From positions 1-24,892 of the IMG/VR virus record IMGVR_UViG_3300017727_000149: a stretch of DNA of 24,892 nucleotides; one strand, given 5' to 3'. Under the pieces are notes generated by a model. The model saw only the letters and a program-made list of their open reading frames with translations, was not told the DNA's origin and made no database searches. The position numbers and the translations under genes were made by a program. This document shows, one piece after another, positions 13,022 to 21,125 of the stretch. This DNA comes from a virus. Within the stretch, counting starts at the first letter, position 1. Each line of letters starts with the position of its first letter.

Positions 13022-14185
13022 CTAATTAATTGTATATCTTCCAAAGTTAGGTCTGCTTAATATACTATAAGTTGCATATCTCACAGCATCTATTATGTGA
13101 TTGTTCTTATCCTCTGGAATATTTGTCAGCTTTCCGCTTTTATCTTCTTTCCATTTATAGTTCCTAAACTCCTGTATCGCATTGTTGCTGGGTGTTGTTA
13201 TAAATAGTTTATACCTCTTCAATAAATCAATACCTGCATTTATACTATCCCTACCTTTTAAGCTTGGTCTAATGTTCCAACCCATTCTTCTTAACTCTTC
13301 TATTAATCGAGGCTCACTGCTATCCATATACAACTGATTTCTTGCAACCCCTACTTCTTTAAATGTGTTGTGTAGATCTTTGGTGGTCATTTGTGTTCTG
13401 TATAAATGTTCTTTGATATAAAGATTATAATCTAAACTATAAACACTTACAAGTGTTGAGGGATCATTAGAATATCCTGCATCTGCACCATAGGCTATAA
13501 ACTTTGCATCATCTGGTATTTGTGAGCATTCATAATAATTAAATATAGTTGCTTTGCTTATACCTTTTAAACCTAATCCATATATCTGCCAGTATTGTTC
13601 ATCTGTTTCTTTTAACCTTTCTATCTCAGATTTAATGCTTTGTTCTAAAAAAGGATTATCTAAATAAGTTGTTCTGTAAAAGTCGCAATCTTCCCTTGTA
13701 ATTACTTTGTCGTATATCCAATGGTATTCATCACTAGGATTATAATCTATTATTATCTTCCCATCTGTTCTAAATATTAGCTGTTGCCAATCTTCCCAGT
13801 TTAATTCGTTGGCTTCATTAATAAACAATAGATTCCTTTTCCTACCCCTAACCTTTTGTGGCATATCCAGGCTAATAAACTCTACAAGATTATTAAACAG
13901 CTTATACTCACTATTAGATTTATTATGATTCTCTTCTTGATATATATTTAGTTTGCGTAATATATCTAGGAAGTCACGCATTACGGATGCTCTTAGACTA
14001 GGAAAAGCTTTACGGCAAATTGTTATTGTTTTGTCTGTGTTACTTGCACAATATTGCAAGATAATCCATAGCAGTATATTATATGTTTTACCAGATCGTG
14101 TTCCGCCTTGCTCAACAACAATCTTTTTATTGCTGTTTACTAAATGCTTATAAACTTTGTTTGTCTGTATCTTCTGTTTTATCAA
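13022..14185 (-). CDS. terL: Terminase large subunit (PBSX/Terminase_3-like)
   Basis: The packaging ATPase and headful nuclease. Of 387 residues, the N-terminal ATPase has Walker A GGTRSGKT (27-34), Walker B LLFINEA (119-125) and the coupling motif DYNP (147-150). The C-terminal RNase H-like nuclease has acidic residues D235 (AYGADAGYSNDP), D288 (LYMDSSEP) and D366 (NNHIIDAVRYA), all expected for cleavage. This is shorter than many (400-450 aa) but complete. The only usable start is TTG, placed 38 bases inside the small subunit gene; an in-frame stop lies just upstream, so no ATG start is possible near the N-terminus. Confidence 0.93.
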   Translation of the reverse strand: MIKQKIQTNKVYKHLVNSNKKIVVEQGGTRSGKTYNILLWIILQYCASNTDKTITICRKAFPSLRASVMRDFLDILRKLNIYQEENHNKSNSEYKLFNNLVEFISLDMPQKVRGRKRNLLFINEANELNWEDWQQLIFRTDGKIIIDYNPSDEYHWIYDKVITREDCDFYRTTYLDNPFLEQSIKSEIERLKETDEQYWQIYGLGLKGISKATIFNYYECSQIPDDAKFIAYGADAGYSNDPSTLVSVYSLDYNLYIKEHLYRTQMTTKDLHNTFKEVGVARNQLYMDSSEPRLIEELRRMGWNIRPSLKGRDSINAGIDLLKRYKLFITTPSNNAIQEFRNYKWKEDKSGKLTNIPEDKNNHIIDAVRYATYSILSRPNFGRYTIN

Positions 14186-14516
14186 TGATCTCTACTTGAA
14201 AATTAGTAGGCACTCCATCAGCACCTGTTATCTCTTGTCTTTCTACATACCCCCTTTTCTTTCCTTTTGTTTTCAAATAAAATATAGTCGCACTTGTTGA
14301 GTTCTCTGCTATTTGTCTATGTAATTGTGATTCAGCAAAATCTAATGCTACATTCTGCACATCATCTACTAGCTTTTTAAATTCTGGATCTGTATTATAC
14401 CAGTCGTAATAAGTTGTTCTTCCTATTCCTACTTTCTTACAGGCTGTTGTAACAACGCCTAAAGATTTTTCTAATGCATCTAATAATGCTTTTTTATGCT
14501 GTTCGGTTTTGTTCAT
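14148..14516 (-). CDS. terS: Terminase small subunit
   Basis: A 122-residue DNA-recognition subunit that selects phage DNA for packaging. Residues about 20-50 form a helix-turn-helix (VTTACKKVGIGRTTYYDWYN) followed by a helical oligomerisation part with FAESQLHRQIAENSTSATIF and LKTKGKKRGY. This is the layout of small terminases of the homeodomain-like/phBC6A51 type. The gene overlaps the dioxygenase gene by 23 bases and the large subunit by 38, so it is translated in tight coupling with DNA modification and packaging genes. Confidence 0.85.
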   Translation of the reverse strand: MNKTEQHKKALLDALEKSLGVVTTACKKVGIGRTTYYDWYNTDPEFKKLVDDVQNVALDFAESQLHRQIAENSTSATIFYLKTKGKKRGYVERQEITGADGVPTNFQVEIIDKTEDTDKQSL

Positions 14517-15384
14517 TTTCTATACTATCTTTATAATCTTTTGCTTCCTTTTTTCTTTGTCGTAATGAATCTAAATGATTAGGATCTAATCGGTTAGCTT
14601 CACGCACCATTTTCTTTTCTCTTATTCGGTCGATCTCTTCTTCTATTGTGTTGCATTGCCACATTCTTTCCAAAGAATAATAAACAACACTATACCTATA
14701 AGCTTTGTTGTTTTTATATTCAATGGGGCTTACTCCGTGTAATAAATCTTGCCCATCAAATATGGTTAATGAATTATCTGCTACTTCTAATGATATGTCT
14801 AGTTCTGGTATTACTAAATGCCCACCTTGCACATCTCCTTTAAACACAACCATATTGCTGTAAACATTTTTAAAGTTACCTGAATCGTAGTGATATTTCA
14901 GTTGATTGTTTTTGTTTACTATACCGCTTGTAAACACACTATTATTAATTACCCATTGTTCCTTTACCTTATCTTTTACTTTGTTTTTGTGGTCGTAATA
15001 TGTTTCAGGAAAAAACTCGTGATAATATTTGGATACTTCTTCTGCAAATCTGCTAATAACATAATGTTGTTTAGGGTGTGATGTACCCATTGCGCTAGCA
15101 CTACAATAATCGTGTTTGTTTTCTTGTCTTGGATTGTAACCAAATACTGCACTTGTGTTAACTAATCCGTGTGTTCTTTTGCCAGTTGCGTATTTTATAT
15201 TTTTAACCGCCCATCTTACATCGTTAGGTTTCTTTGGCAATATCCTGTAAAGCAAAATAGGTTTATTATTATGATATATAATTACATCATCTTTAATGTG
15301 TCTGCTTACATCAGATAGGATTGCAGTTCTTCTAATGTAATCTTTTTTATCAATAGGTTTTCTATCTACATCTATTCTTTTCAT
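14494..15384 (-). CDS. TET/JBP-family 2-oxoglutarate/Fe(II) dioxygenase
   Basis: A 296-residue oxygenase predicted to hydroxylate the methyl group of 5-methylcytosine or thymine in DNA, using Fe(II) and 2-oxoglutarate. Family landmarks are visible: FGYNPR near residue 81; VFTSGIVNKNNQLKYHYD ending in H165 and D167 (iron ligands); GGHLVIPELDISL (187-199); FDGQDLLHGV with H216 as the third ligand; and R230 in YRYSVVYYS, which binds 2-oxoglutarate. All catalytic residues are intact. The C-terminal 50 residues are a charged helix. The start overlaps the glycosyltransferase stop as ATGA and the end overlaps the small terminase gene. I am confident in the family; the base target is not determined by sequence. 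Confidence 0.88.
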   Translation of the reverse strand: MKRIDVDRKPIDKKDYIRRTAILSDVSRHIKDDVIIYHNNKPILLYRILPKKPNDVRWAVKNIKYATGKRTHGLVNTSAVFGYNPRQENKHDYCSASAMGTSHPKQHYVISRFAEEVSKYYHEFFPETYYDHKNKVKDKVKEQWVINNSVFTSGIVNKNNQLKYHYDSGNFKNVYSNMVVFKGDVQGGHLVIPELDISLEVADNSLTIFDGQDLLHGVSPIEYKNNKAYRYSVVYYSLERMWQCNTIEEEIDRIREKKMVREANRLDPNHLDSLRQRKKEAKDYKDSIENEQNRTA

Positions 15385-16124
15385 CGCATATCTTTTAATC
15401 TTAATTCAGCATTGCCTGTTGTTTTTCTAATATACATTTTACAAAATTCAGGAAACATACTTTGGATTTGATATATAGAATCATATACATATTGTTTTGT
15501 TCTTATCTCTTGTAGCCCTCCTTGTTCTTTATAATAGTTTGATTTAACTGTTAAGTAATCTAATCTGACAAGCCTTTTGTTTTTTATGTATTGCCTAATG
15601 CTGTATTCATAATCTTCTCCGTGGTTTGTAACACGATCTAAAAATTTATCGTGGTCAACTATAACACCAAACATAGAAGCAATTATATAACATAGCTTTG
15701 TGTATATTCTGTTCTTCATAAAATAGGGATTACCTGCTGCATAAATACCAAAAGTTTTAGCTTCTATTTGCTCACAAGCATTAAATCCTTTATAAAATAC
15801 ATCTTTTTCTAAATCCTCTACATCAATTAACTTATCTCTTTTTTTTCTTTGCACCTTTTCTATATCATCATCAAACATCATTAGCCTTGTTCCCTCTGGG
15901 TAATACTTTTCTATAAAGTTTCTTTGTCTGCCAATTGTTGGAACACCCACAACTATTTTATAATTATTACCAAGGCTTTCTTTATATATTTTTTCTTCTT
16001 CTTTATTTGCTACAAAAATTGTAATTAAATCTTTGTTAATGTTATAGTCTAATAAAAGCTTTAATGTTTTCTGTTTTATTGTTTCTGGTCGCTTATAAGA
16101 GGGTATTGCGATTTTATAATCCAT
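15381..16124 (-). CDS. TET/JBP-associated-type glycosyltransferase (GT-A)
   Basis: A 247-residue enzyme predicted to add a sugar to hydroxymethylated bases in DNA. The N-terminal strand and loop IAIPSYKRP (5-13) is the nucleotide-sugar site of GT-A enzymes. LMMFDDDI (about 81-88) supplies the DxD metal motif. GEDYEYSIR (169-177) is the acidic ED motif near the active site. The segment with NYYKEQGGLQEIRTKQ is reminiscent of the glycosyltransferases found beside phage TET/JBP genes. The ATG chosen lies 9 bases after an alternative TTG and overlaps the ParB-like gene end by 11. A virion-protein glycosyltransferase is less likely given the ATGA coupling to the dioxygenase. Confidence 0.78.
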   Translation of the reverse strand: MDYKIAIPSYKRPETIKQKTLKLLLDYNINKDLITIFVANKEEEKIYKESLGNNYKIVVGVPTIGRQRNFIEKYYPEGTRLMMFDDDIEKVQRKKRDKLIDVEDLEKDVFYKGFNACEQIEAKTFGIYAAGNPYFMKNRIYTKLCYIIASMFGVIVDHDKFLDRVTNHGEDYEYSIRQYIKNKRLVRLDYLTVKSNYYKEQGGLQEIRTKQYVYDSIYQIQSMFPEFCKMYIRKTTGNAELRLKDMR

Positions 16125-16695
16125 ACTTATCAATTAAAAATTTAAATGCCTGTGTGTTGTCCGTAAGGTTTTCCTTTTCTCTTATTGTTTCTAAATCTTT
16201 AATAGCCTTTTCATATTCATCTGCATTAAAATATAATGTTATTTGTTTTACCTTTGCATTGATATAGGTATCTAATTCTTGATCAAATATATCTTTGTCT
16301 AGCTGAGGCTCTTCATCCTCATCAAAATATATTCTTGGTAGATCTAATCCCCATTCCTTTAATTCATTTAGCTCCCATTCATTTGCTAACACATCCCAGT
16401 CCCACTCTCCGAAGCTACTGTTATCTTTAATAACAAACTCTTGTTTTTGTTTTTCTGATAAACCATTTGCCTGTATTACATAAACGTTTGTTAATCCTGC
16501 CTGTACTGCTGCTTTATATCTCATATTGCCACCCAGTATAATATTATTCTCATCCACAACAATTGGTCGCAACTGCATCATTTCTGGAAAATCCTTTATG
16601 CTTTTTACAAGCTTTGTAAACTTATAATCTTTTATTACCCTAGGATTTTCTGGATTGTTTTTTATTTTATTTATATTTATTTTAATAGGCTTCAT
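16114..16695 (-). CDS. Stand-alone ParB/Srx-fold protein of the DNA-modification type
   Basis: A 193-residue protein with a ParB-like N-terminal domain: NPENPRV (14-20), a central PIVVDENNIILGGNMRYKA with the GGNMR loop (55-59) that binds nucleotide in ParB proteins, and FVIKDNSSFGEWDWDVLANE (87-106). This is the ParB version usually joined to a phage DNA methyltransferase, and the EWGLDLP linker that normally leads into the methylase is present. Here a short helical tail (KQITLYFNADEYEKA) follows and no methylase. It is coupled to the glycosyltransferase gene. It might guide or regulate base modification; no partition role is expected. TTTATATA ends 5 bases before its ATG. Confidence 0.8.
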   Translation of the reverse strand: MKPIKININKIKNNPENPRVIKDYKFTKLVKSIKDFPEMMQLRPIVVDENNIILGGNMRYKAAVQAGLTNVYVIQANGLSEKQKQEFVIKDNSSFGEWDWDVLANEWELNELKEWGLDLPRIYFDEDEEPQLDKDIFDQELDTYINAKVKQITLYFNADEYEKAIKDLETIREKENLTDNTQAFKFLIDKYGL

Positions 16696-16709: not shown

Positions 16710-17261
16710 TTATTTAGTTTTTTTTATTAACTTTTTTATGTTTCTAAAACTATGATACACTTCCCAATAACTTATTTTTTTATCATTTGCATATTTTGTT
16801 AGATTACCATCAGTATTATAATATATATCTTTAAACATTTCTATATGTTGATCTATAAAATACAAATTTCTGTTCCTTTTTTGAATTATATTTAATCTTT
16901 TTTCAAGTTCTTTATGTAATTTATAAAAATCATAATAGTGAGGGGATCTTAATTTTACAGGTTTAGCGTTTACAAATCTACCTTCTTTATTCATAGCAAC
17001 CACATCACCATTTCTATCTATTCTTAAAGTTAGCATTTCTTTTTTATCTTTTCTTTTTATGTCTATAAATAAACTTCTTAATGTATTATAGATATACATA
17101 TGATTAAAGGTGTCTTCATAATCTATATTTAAGCCATTGTTTAATTTATTTAGTATTTTAAAATACATCTGGCTTACTATTTCTTTTGCATCCGTTTTGT
17201 TTGCGCCTAATTTCATAGCATATCTTAACCAGATTTTATGTTTGCTATATAAATTAATCAC
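16710..17261 (-). CDS. Sigma-70-like factor (paralog A), 183 aa
   Basis: A two-domain protein with the layout of small sigma factors. Residues 8-37 resemble region 2 (HKIWLRYAMKLGANKTDAKE then IVSQMYFKI). NIDYEDTFNHMYIYNTLRSL with FIDIKRKDKK (45-74) matches regions 2.2-2.4 in spacing. Residues 152-177 form a helix-turn-helix (NLTKYANDKKISYWEVYHSF) like region 4. Members of this type could direct phage late transcription on host RNA polymerase; this is inference. It starts with GTG 8 bases inside the DnaA-like gene and lies 14 bases before the ParB gene. A second copy with the same plan lies upstream. Confidence 0.65.
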   Translation of the reverse strand: MINLYSKHKIWLRYAMKLGANKTDAKEIVSQMYFKILNKLNNGLNIDYEDTFNHMYIYNTLRSLFIDIKRKDKKEMLTLRIDRNGDVVAMNKEGRFVNAKPVKLRSPHYYDFYKLHKELEKRLNIIQKRNRNLYFIDQHIEMFKDIYYNTDGNLTKYANDKKISYWEVYHSFRNIKKLIKKTK

Positions 17262-20482: not shown

Positions 20483-20619
20483 TATTTTCTTTTAATCTTA
20501 ATGTTGTTCAGAAAATTCTTTCTTTCTTCACACCCACAATCCTCACCCCAGATTTTTTTTACCAAATACTTAATGCCTGTTATTGTTGTTATTTTCTCTA
20601 CTAAATCTCCTAATCGCAT
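20482..20619 (-). CDS. Small DCGCEER-motif protein, 45 aa
   Basis: The protein reads MRLGDLVEKITTITGIKYL, then KKIWGEDCGCEERKNFLN. This GxGD-x-VEK-x3-x2-GI and DCGCEER-K-x3-LN combination is a well-known tiny protein of Bacteroidota phages whose function is unknown to me. The two cysteines could bind a metal or redox partner. The start overlaps the sigma-like gene end by 10 bases and the stop overlaps the next start as TAATG, which argues strongly that it is translated. Confidence 0.7.
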   Translation of the reverse strand: MRLGDLVEKITTITGIKYLVKKIWGEDCGCEERKNFLNNIKIKRK

Positions 20620-21125
20620 AGCTTATCTTTTAAATGTTGTTTGGCGTTCCTATATGTATTATATAAACTATAATAACTTATTTTGCTTTCCCTACTTAGT
20701 TTGCTTATGCTAGTTCCTGTTGCTACTATTGTAAAAATCTTTTTATCATACCAATACATTTCAGATAATTCCTCGTTAAGTTTGGTTCGCATCTGTTCAT
20801 ACTCCACTTCGTTAACACCTACGATCTCAGGCATTTTAGTTTGATCTACAAAATCTAATGGGATTTTTTTAATTCTGGATTCTACCTTGCGCAGATTTAG
20901 ATACATACCTTTCAATATTTTGTAGATATAATAATAATTTACATCATCATCAAAAGTTATATTAAGCCCTTTCTCGACATCTTGTTGTAGTTGTATATAC
21001 ATTTCTTGACATATATCTTGTGCTACAACTTCATTGCATCCAAAAGATTTCAAAACATTTATCCAATCCTTATGTTTTAAAAAAGCTTTTTCTACTACAT
21101 TAAAATGGTAATTCTTTTTTGGCAC
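20610..21125 (-). CDS. Sigma-70-like factor (paralog B), 171 aa
   Basis: This protein has the same plan as the 183-residue sigma-like protein: an N-terminal part with HKDWINVLKSFGCNEVVAQD and ICQEMYIQLQ (18-47), NITFDDDVNYYYIYKILKGM (55-74), then a basic segment, and a helix-turn-helix with SISKLSRESKISYYSLYNTY (139-158). Sequence identity with paralog A is low, but segments line up with equal spacing. It begins at GTG 26 bases inside the helicase gene, because no ATG exists before residue 42. It might direct early or middle phage genes; that is inference. Confidence 0.62.
   Translation of the reverse strand: MPKKNYHFNVVEKAFLKHKDWINVLKSFGCNEVVAQDICQEMYIQLQQDVEKGLNITFDDDVNYYYIYKILKGMYLNLRKVESRIKKIPLDFVDQTKMPEIVGVNEVEYEQMRTKLNEELSEMYWYDKKIFTIVATGTSISKLSRESKISYYSLYNTYRNAKQHLKDKLCD

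Follow-up and report, generated by a model that had tools for sequence, protein, structure and literature searches.

What does a dioxygenase of the TET/JBP family do directly upstream of the genes that package viral DNA? The question is raised by IMG/VR virus record IMGVR_UViG_3300017727_000149, of which 24,892 bases (positions 1 to 24,892; G+C content, 31%) were analyzed and are here called the window. Genes for a ParB-like protein, a TET-associated glycosyltransferase (TAGT), a TET/JBP dioxygenase (TET), and the small and large terminase subunits (terS and terL) follow one another in that order, all on the minus strand. A first-pass annotation, made from the sequence alone, had described the first three genes as a DNA hypermodification cassette in one operon with the terminase genes. 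Gene order in the window and in its relatives bears out the operon, and the overlaps of 11 bp (ParB/TAGT), 4 bp (ATGA; TAGT/TET), and 23 bp (TET/terS) were exact on recomputation, the first being counted with the TAGT ATG start at 16124 (TAGT might alternatively start with the TTG at 16133). The cassette is thus real, and the interpretation placed on it is only partly supported. What went unmentioned is that close relatives exchange the cassette for unrelated modification modules: at an exchange site between the ParB N-domain and terS, different DNA modification modules replace one another, and the C-terminal tail of ParB sorts with the module present.

The exchange is delimited by two loci, L249 and L251, whose TerL proteins are 98% identical to that of the window and which both lack a TET. 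In blastn alignments, the DNA was 85% identical up to position 16335 for L249 (ParB residue 121) or 16342 for L251 (residue 118). An identity of 91 to 92% resumed at the start of terS, at 14522 (L249) or 14517 (L251), with the L249 homology restarting 6 bp ahead of the start codon of terS. Between these break points, blastn found no match between the block in either locus and the window. The block is occupied by a Mom gene in L249 (3.6e-32) and by a TAGT without a TET in L251 (8.1e-15).

The site was then scored across TerL relatives (the best 80 of at least 600 matches; 74 to 100% identical), 9 of which were dropped as cut. The region taken was the 1.2 to 2 kb preceding terS; in loci where a window-like terS was not found, the distance was counted from terL instead. 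The 71 evaluable loci carried Mom (14 loci), TAGT-like glycosyltransferases without TET (13), MED4-type TETs (8), proteins joining an ABC ATPase to GNAT (8), window-type TETs (6), other glycosyltransferase-like proteins with a DDD motif (5), small C5-methylase-like proteins (4), GT-B glycosyltransferases (3), ADDT plus kinase (1), the deazaguanine genes QueE/FolE (1), a Dcm-like protein (1), and other genes (7). The labels small or Dcm-like C5-methylase, other glycosyltransferase-like, and QueE were assigned from motifs by eye. Pfam searches with ten representatives returned Mom (twice), ABC plus GNAT, TAGT (twice), Tet_JBP, Glycos_transf_1, GTP cyclohydrolase I, and ADDT, along with one weak kinase match. 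ParB was seen in 40 of the 71 loci, whose flanks are short; 3 of the 13 loci with a TAGT-like glycosyltransferase and no TET had neither ParB nor a window-like terS.

Some occupants of the site merit mention in their own right. The TAGT-like glycosyltransferases that lie upstream of terL with no TET nearby are found at 871-1584 in L251, at 950-1663 in L255, and in 11 more of the 71 loci. In L258 (595-1662) and 7 further loci, an ABC-type ATPase and a GNAT domain are combined in one protein, possibly an unstudied DNA-modifying enzyme. Long ParB-like proteins are the sole occupants of the slot in L270 (497 aa; 199-1692) and L311 (375 aa; 553-1680) and are perhaps fusions of ParB to a modifying domain.

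The sorting of ParB tails was evaluated with 113 collected ParB proteins, 104 of which were kept (tail of at least 30 aa and N-domain of at least 90 aa). Tail families track module class among these 104 proteins. All 68 ParBs of window-type TET modules fell into one tail family, whichever glycosyltransferase group, or ADDT, the module contained. Mom group c10, ABC-GNAT, and the other glycosyltransferases had one tail family each, and Mom group c4 and lone glycosyltransferases were linked by a few matches. Tails were shared by 2,379 of 2,463 ParB pairs from the same class; among pairs from different classes, sharing was seen in 0 of 2,851 with N-domains <90% identical and in 5 of 42 above that level. 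The tail had a nonsynonymous rate (dN) of 0.028 and a synonymous rate (dS) of 0.59 to 0.66 (2 scorable of 12 relatives). When a profile of the TET-type tail was searched against 6,772 open reading frames, only 8 proteins outside the window clade matched (E values of 1e-4 to 0.13), all of them located in TET loci of other phage groups and all also positive with the mixed ParB profile described below. For neither the ParB tail nor the exchange site was anything found in print in the open-licence literature.

The N-domain of the ParB-like protein matched ParB_N at 28.2 bits (cut-off, 26.3); it remained below the cut-off with the canonical ParB model (NCBIfam parB_part, 2.4e-6; TIGR00180, 27.4 bits; cut-off, 58.45). 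On the basis of ParB_N, the protein is a candidate for the ParB-CTPase fold with putative nucleoside triphosphate (NTP) binding. The ParB_N match was also over the cut-off in L249, L251, and L258 and slightly under it in L272 and L316. Many homologs of the N-domain elsewhere lie within proteins annotated as phage DNA methylases, and an excerpt of PMC12704722 describes NTP binding by some methylase-fused ParB folds.

ParB lies within 3 kb of the TET gene in 73 of the 81 loci of the window clade, the window itself being counted (8 cut upstream), in 30 of 37 HTVC112P-type loci (7 cut), and in 72 of 77 MED4-type loci (5 cut; 78 loci were scanned, 1 of them without a TET open reading frame). Within the same distance, it was found in only 1 of 70 Melnitz-type loci (9 cut) and in none of 16 C48C1-type loci, 18 P12024L-type loci (1 cut), and 2 others (L187 and L188). 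An N-domain profile built from the window clade alone gave a consistent picture, finding 73 window-clade loci, 30 HTVC-type loci, and 73 MED4-type loci as well as MED4-184, whereas loci of the Melnitz, P12024L, and C48C1 types yielded no match. The mixed ParB profile was seeded with proteins of the window, HTVC112P, and MED4-184 and with six actinophage proteins picked by annotation or place; it counted ParB in 10 of 12 named phages, a circular result because 7 of the 10 were profile seeds. Of the 70 Melnitz-type loci, 64 had a full-length C5-methylase; the remaining TET groups searched had none. With the full-length methylase confined to the type in which ParB is nearly absent, the two genes are nearly mutually exclusive.

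These patterns suggest that ParB may serve as a module-specific adaptor. Several results pull the other way. The tail adjoins the module, so that linkage alone could make both travel together. ParB also precedes Mom, ABC-GNAT, and lone-glycosyltransferase modules and is therefore not specific to TET. In profile-profile comparisons, the tails of MED4-type TET loci scored only 32% against window-type tails and likewise 32% against the non-TET ABC-GNAT set, which argues against one tail family common to all TETs. Finally, the TET-adjacent proteins of Rich, Stinger, and MO526 had no ParB_N match in Pfam, and the window-only N-domain profile recovered 0 of 9 actinophage TET-adjacent proteins; the "ParB" identity of the actinophage proteins is accordingly that of the depositors' labels.

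The strongest competing explanation is that ParB is no adaptor and is instead a transcription regulator or a nuclease-like protein, whose tail covaries with the module since recombination breaks inside the ParB gene. The break at the end of the conserved N-domain would be a natural anchor for homologous recombination, and DndB is presented in an excerpt of PMC12704722 as a ParB-like repressor of a modification operon. Against linkage alone speaks the presence of related tails in distant phages with other gene orders. Window-type TET tails scored 91% against actinophage TET-adjacent tails (40 column shuffles, at most 0.5%) and 70% against the tails of HTVC phages of SAR11 (shuffles up to 31%). 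The scores were 17% against MED4-184 (shuffles, ≤3.2%), 19% against L316 (≤3.3%), and no higher than 1.3% against six non-TET tail sets. Additionally, the ParB tail of L316, a TerL relative of the window carrying a MED4-type TET, resembles the tail found in cyanophage MED4-184 (97%), and a tail of this kind is likewise carried by the 72 MED4-type loci when taken together (99%). We regard the regulator or nuclease-like explanation as a serious minority possibility.

The family assignments of the two enzymes are well supported. The TET product matched Tet_JBP at 52.1 bits (cut-off, 34.9), and the residues H165, D167, H216, and R230 noted in the first-pass annotation are present and invariant in two alignments, one of 22 diverse phage TETs and one of 23 TETs from viral contigs. 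Its predicted structure (predicted local distance difference test score [pLDDT], 91.0) had human TET2 as the best fold match (VIA Z, 19.4; 252 residues; root mean square deviation, 4.0), followed by CMD1 (18.8), NgTET1 (18.5), and CcTet (16.6). The TET/CMD1 group spanned Z values of 16.1 to 19.4, and the nearest non-TET fold was FTO (14.6). Pfam, the iron- and 2-oxoglutarate-binding residues, and the double-stranded beta-helix fold agree, confirming membership in the TET/JBP family as originally proposed; the predicted activity is oxidation of a 5-methylpyrimidine in DNA. The label "queuine tRNA-ribosyltransferase," attached through phrog_6059 and also given to TET genes in several GenBank phage records, was judged to be wrong for this protein because Pfam and fold both give TET.

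The neighboring enzyme is confirmed as a TAGT-family, GT-A-type glycosyltransferase with an acidic metal motif, and here too hidden Markov model search and predicted fold agree with the initial placement. The PF20691 match reached 67.6 bits (cut-off, 27.5), with further matches to phrog_25200 (1.5e-38) and phrog_842 (1.1e-21). The expected DDD and GEDYE motifs lie at residues 85 to 87 and 169 to 173 of the 247-aa form, and D85 and D86 are invariant among 17 sequences. The AlphaFold2 model (pLDDT, 87.2) retrieved mostly GT-A glycosyltransferases as top Foldseek matches (best, 9.5e-8), at modest TM-scores of about 0.5. Residues from about 55 to 160 diverge from those of L012, L016, and L029 while the ends are alike, as if the specificity for sugar or acceptor had been swapped by intragenic recombination.

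The position of TAGT is itself variable among TET relatives. Of 85 viral contigs found, 80 were kept (TETs 52 to 100% identical), many of them short; terS was present in 76, ParB in 73, and terL in 71, and ParB was upstream of TET in all 73 loci holding both. The slot between ParB and TET holds one gene in 70 of these loci and three genes in 3. Clustering of the single genes at 40% identity gave seven groups, namely, the TAGT group (25 members) and groups of 21, 11, 5, 4, 2, and 2. Matches to TAGT or phrog_842, some under the cut-off, were obtained for the groups of 21, 5, and 4; the group of 11 had no such match and shows homology to the group of 5 (8.6e-42). Like the window TAGT, one of the two-member groups matches phrog_25200; the other has no clear match. 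The three-gene slot (L068, L070, and L072) encodes ADDT (1.5e-8), a flavin adenine dinucleotide (FAD) oxidase (4.7e-6, just under the cut-off), and a P-loop protein with a subthreshold match to Ploopntkinase3 (0.006). The same trio is present with strong matches (2e-23, 1.2e-11, and 2e-18) in Microbacterium phage MO526, and such enzymes are described for 5-hydroxymethyldeoxyuridine (5hmdU) in phages in excerpts of PMC6449724 and PMC11955845. Proteins of about 200 aa that resemble C5-methylases adjoin TET in L017 (2482-3120), L018 (9217-9855), L027 (9074-9712), and L183 (1883-2533); they carry CGIGG, PPC, and ENV motifs and are too short for a recognition domain.

Which pyrimidine the enzymes would act on was addressed through the distribution of C5-methylases and ADDT. 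Action on 5-methylcytosine, put forward in the first-pass annotation on the precedent of other phage TETs, did not find support: the window has no C5-methylase, and 3 of 76 relatives have a small form. PF00145 (C5-methylase) was over the cut-off in 0 of 25 whole records comprising the window and 24 relatives (one weak match lay below it), in 1 of 19 comprising 16 named TET phages and L068, L070, and L072 (Melnitz-3 only), and in 3 of 50 further relatives (L017, L018, and L027). It covered 76 of the 80 TET relatives; L066, L074, L077, and L079 were searched by tblastn and by a local profile only, the latter detecting full-length forms and having missed the small ones that PF00145 and tblastn found. 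A search of the window for ADDT found none, and no kinase was among the families matched at the locus. ADDT occurred in 5 of the 16 named TET phages, none of them the one bearing a C5-methylase, and in 36 loci by a wider local count (7 profile seeds), 0 of them of the Melnitz type and 1 (L183) with a small methylase. A tree of 66 TETs grouped the window clade with actinophage TETs and MED4-184 (100/100) and placed the Melnitz clade, which is linked to C5-methylases, across a 100/100 branch; the program warned of long branches at the Melnitz separation, and the midpoint root serves for drawing only. Because C5-methylases are scarce, because of the distribution of ADDT, and because of this separation in the tree, thymine is tentatively favored as the TET substrate, with 5-methylcytosine a somewhat weaker candidate.

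The preference for thymine has to be set against contrary observations. A C5-methylase-like gene of about 197 aa lies inside the cassette, between TET and terS, in 3 of the 80 relatives (L017, L018, and L027, with TETs 83 to 85% identical), and a homolog of it lies beside the Nonlabens-type TET of L183, a locus that holds ADDT, a kinase, and the small methylase together. The window is moreover a 24.9-kb fragment, and relatives reach 33.7 kb. Two candidate markers of the thymine route were rejected. The kinase is no such marker because it is also found with C5-methylase-linked TETs, in 25 of 72 Melnitz-type loci. Three positions after the HxD motif, all 81 window-clade TETs have N and all 69 readable Melnitz-type TETs have D; this residue does not separate the routes because D also occurs in Cr30, which bears ADDT, as well as in the clades of HTVC112P and P12024L.

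In the cytosine route, a methylase of the host, or one encoded by the phage outside the fragment, would make 5-methylcytosine, which TET would convert to 5-hydroxymethylcytosine and TAGT would glycosylate. Beyond the small methylase genes just described, this route draws on the TAGT of T2/T6, which adds glucose to glucosylated cytosine according to PMC13216743 ("likely" in PMC13390438), and on several of the solved TET structures matched, which are, by title, complexes with modified-cytosine DNA. On the other side, the window has no C5-methylase, 73 of the 76 relatives searched gave no match above the cut-off, whole-record searches of the 16 named TET phages were negative for 15, and linkage to the full-length enzyme was seen only in the Melnitz clade. 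We consider the cytosine route the less probable one, and tentatively so.

In the reading that we prefer, the three genes would be one version of an interchangeable hypermodification module set between a constant ParB N-domain and the terminase genes. The N-domain would load on DNA, and the module-specific tail would dock TET (or TAGT). In phage DNA, TET would hydroxylate a pyrimidine at its 5-methyl group; this pyrimidine is most probably thymine, which would become 5-hydroxymethyluracil, and TAGT would add a sugar to the hydroxyl, giving a base-J-like glycosylated uracil. Gene order, the sole basis for a coupling to terS and terL, suggests that the DNA may be modified before or during packaging and might thereby escape host restriction. 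We give this reading, taken as a whole, even weight for and against. A dioxygenase acting on RNA, protein, or nucleotides, with TAGT using another acceptor, is very improbable: TAGT-like glycosyltransferases do occur without TET upstream of terL, as counted above, but the nearest folds are those of DNA-acting TET/CMD1 enzymes and the site is often occupied by DNA modification families (Mom and ADDT).

A broader proposal, which we regard as rather unlikely, is that of a general plug-in in which a constant DNA-binding and NTP-switch N-domain of ParB, fitted with a swappable docking tail, would deliver TET/glycosyltransferase, Mom, ABC-GNAT, or lone glycosyltransferases near the packaging motor, the TET/glycosyltransferase product being a base-J-like glycosylated thymine. 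No phage report of such a base was found in the literature surveyed. If the adaptor reading is true, a function open to testing can be assigned to the ParB-like genes beside phage DNA modification enzymes, and close phages that differ at the exchange site form natural pairs with different base chemistries, from which to learn what each modification protects against. If thymine is the substrate, glycosylated hydroxymethyluracil, which is known as a base of trypanosomes, would also be made by phages.

Features of the locus in the window (all on the minus strand)
Feature	Position	Strand	Evidence or note
ParB-like protein, 193 aa	16114..16695	-	ParB_N, 2e-6
ParB N-domain, residues 1-120	16336-16695	-	GGNMR at 55-59, DN at 91-92
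ParB module-specific C-terminal tail, residues 121-193	16117-16335	-	Tail sorting by module
TET-associated glycosyltransferase (TAGT), GT-A type, 247 aa	15381..16124	-	PF20691, 1.9e-18
TET/JBP-family Fe(II)/2-oxoglutarate DNA dioxygenase, 296 aa	14494..15384	-	PF12851, 5.6e-14
Exchangeable block, ParB tail start to just before terS	14523..16334	-	blastn versus L249
Exchangeable block as defined by L251	16341-14518	-	blastn versus L251
terS, terminase small subunit	14148..14516	-	phrog_4044, 1.2e-9; overlap with TET, 23 bp
terL, terminase large subunit	13022..14185 (TTG start as listed)	-	PF04466, 4.6e-24; PF17288, 4.2e-19

Elsewhere in the window, matches were obtained to portal, virion structural, protease, tape measure, exonuclease, helicase, single-stranded DNA-binding, and NinG proteins. 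Two small proteins (16710-17261 and 20610-21125) have no clear family and look sigma factor-like by eye. Relatives of the former, at 21 to 34% identity, are found in several contigs, often directly past the helicase, a position occupied in the window by the latter. Dinucleotide frequencies across the window show strong depletion of CpG, at 0.42 of expectation, and enrichment of GpC (1.37). A host search with TET against genome contigs found no relative; TerL matches at 37% to Flavobacterium phages allow a guess at a host in Flavobacteriia.

Among known phages, TET relatives were found in 99 and TAGT relatives in 22 of 50,697 records in a phage collection (threshold, 1e-5); for 84 of the 99 with a TET relative, the host genus is Mycobacterium, Microbacterium, Arthrobacter, Gordonia, or Rhodococcus. 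In nine actinophage regions, a ParB-like gene (7 by annotation and the rest by place) lies near TET, and a terminase gene then follows in all except Altadena. A modification cassette beside the terminase is therefore not new. Mycobacteriophage Rich (Acadianvirus) comes close to the window, with gp1, TET (gp2), TAGT (gp3), two further genes, and the terminase on one strand, the genes gp1 to gp6 mostly overlapping or abutting. We take gp1 as the ParB-like counterpart, although it is "hypothetical" in the record and, unlike the window ParB, has no ParB_N match. Rich also differs in adding a PIG-L-type deacetylase and a P-loop kinase, in placing TET before TAGT, and in a TET identity of 26%. The five-gene thymidine hypermodification system of Rhodococcus phage Tonitrus, as presented in an excerpt of PMC11955845, has annotated ParB-like, Tet-like, and transferase genes upstream of the terminase and, like the window, no C5-methylase in the record; unlike the window, it has ADDT and a kinase, and no glycosyltransferase is annotated in the portion of the region presented. 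The window itself does not fit thymidine hypermodification through a 5hmdU kinase and ADDT/aGPT-PPlase, and ADDT appears in its relatives L068, L070, and L072.

Phage TETs paired with C5-methylases reportedly carry out 5-methylcytosine hypermodification with glycosyltransferase partners (Burke et al., 2021). That type of system shares with the window a TET accompanied by a glycosyltransferase; it differs in its linked C5-methylase, of which the window has none in 24.9 kb, and ParB is nearly absent from loci with a linked C5-methylase. Kinetoplastid base J synthesis (JBP1/JBP2 and JGT) shares the proposed logic, from thymine through 5-hydroxymethyluracil to its glucosylated form. JGT is a different glycosyltransferase from TAGT. 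The closest parallel to the exchange itself is the variable island between the integrase gene and terL of a Mu-like cryoconite phage, sketched in an excerpt of PMC7468147, in which DNA methylases (in one variant, an acetyltransferase) are exchanged near the terminase and ParB is among the labeled genes; the island as described there has neither a TET/glycosyltransferase module nor a link between ParB tail and enzyme. As far as the open-licence literature reaches, it is the exchange site with module-matched ParB tails that is new.

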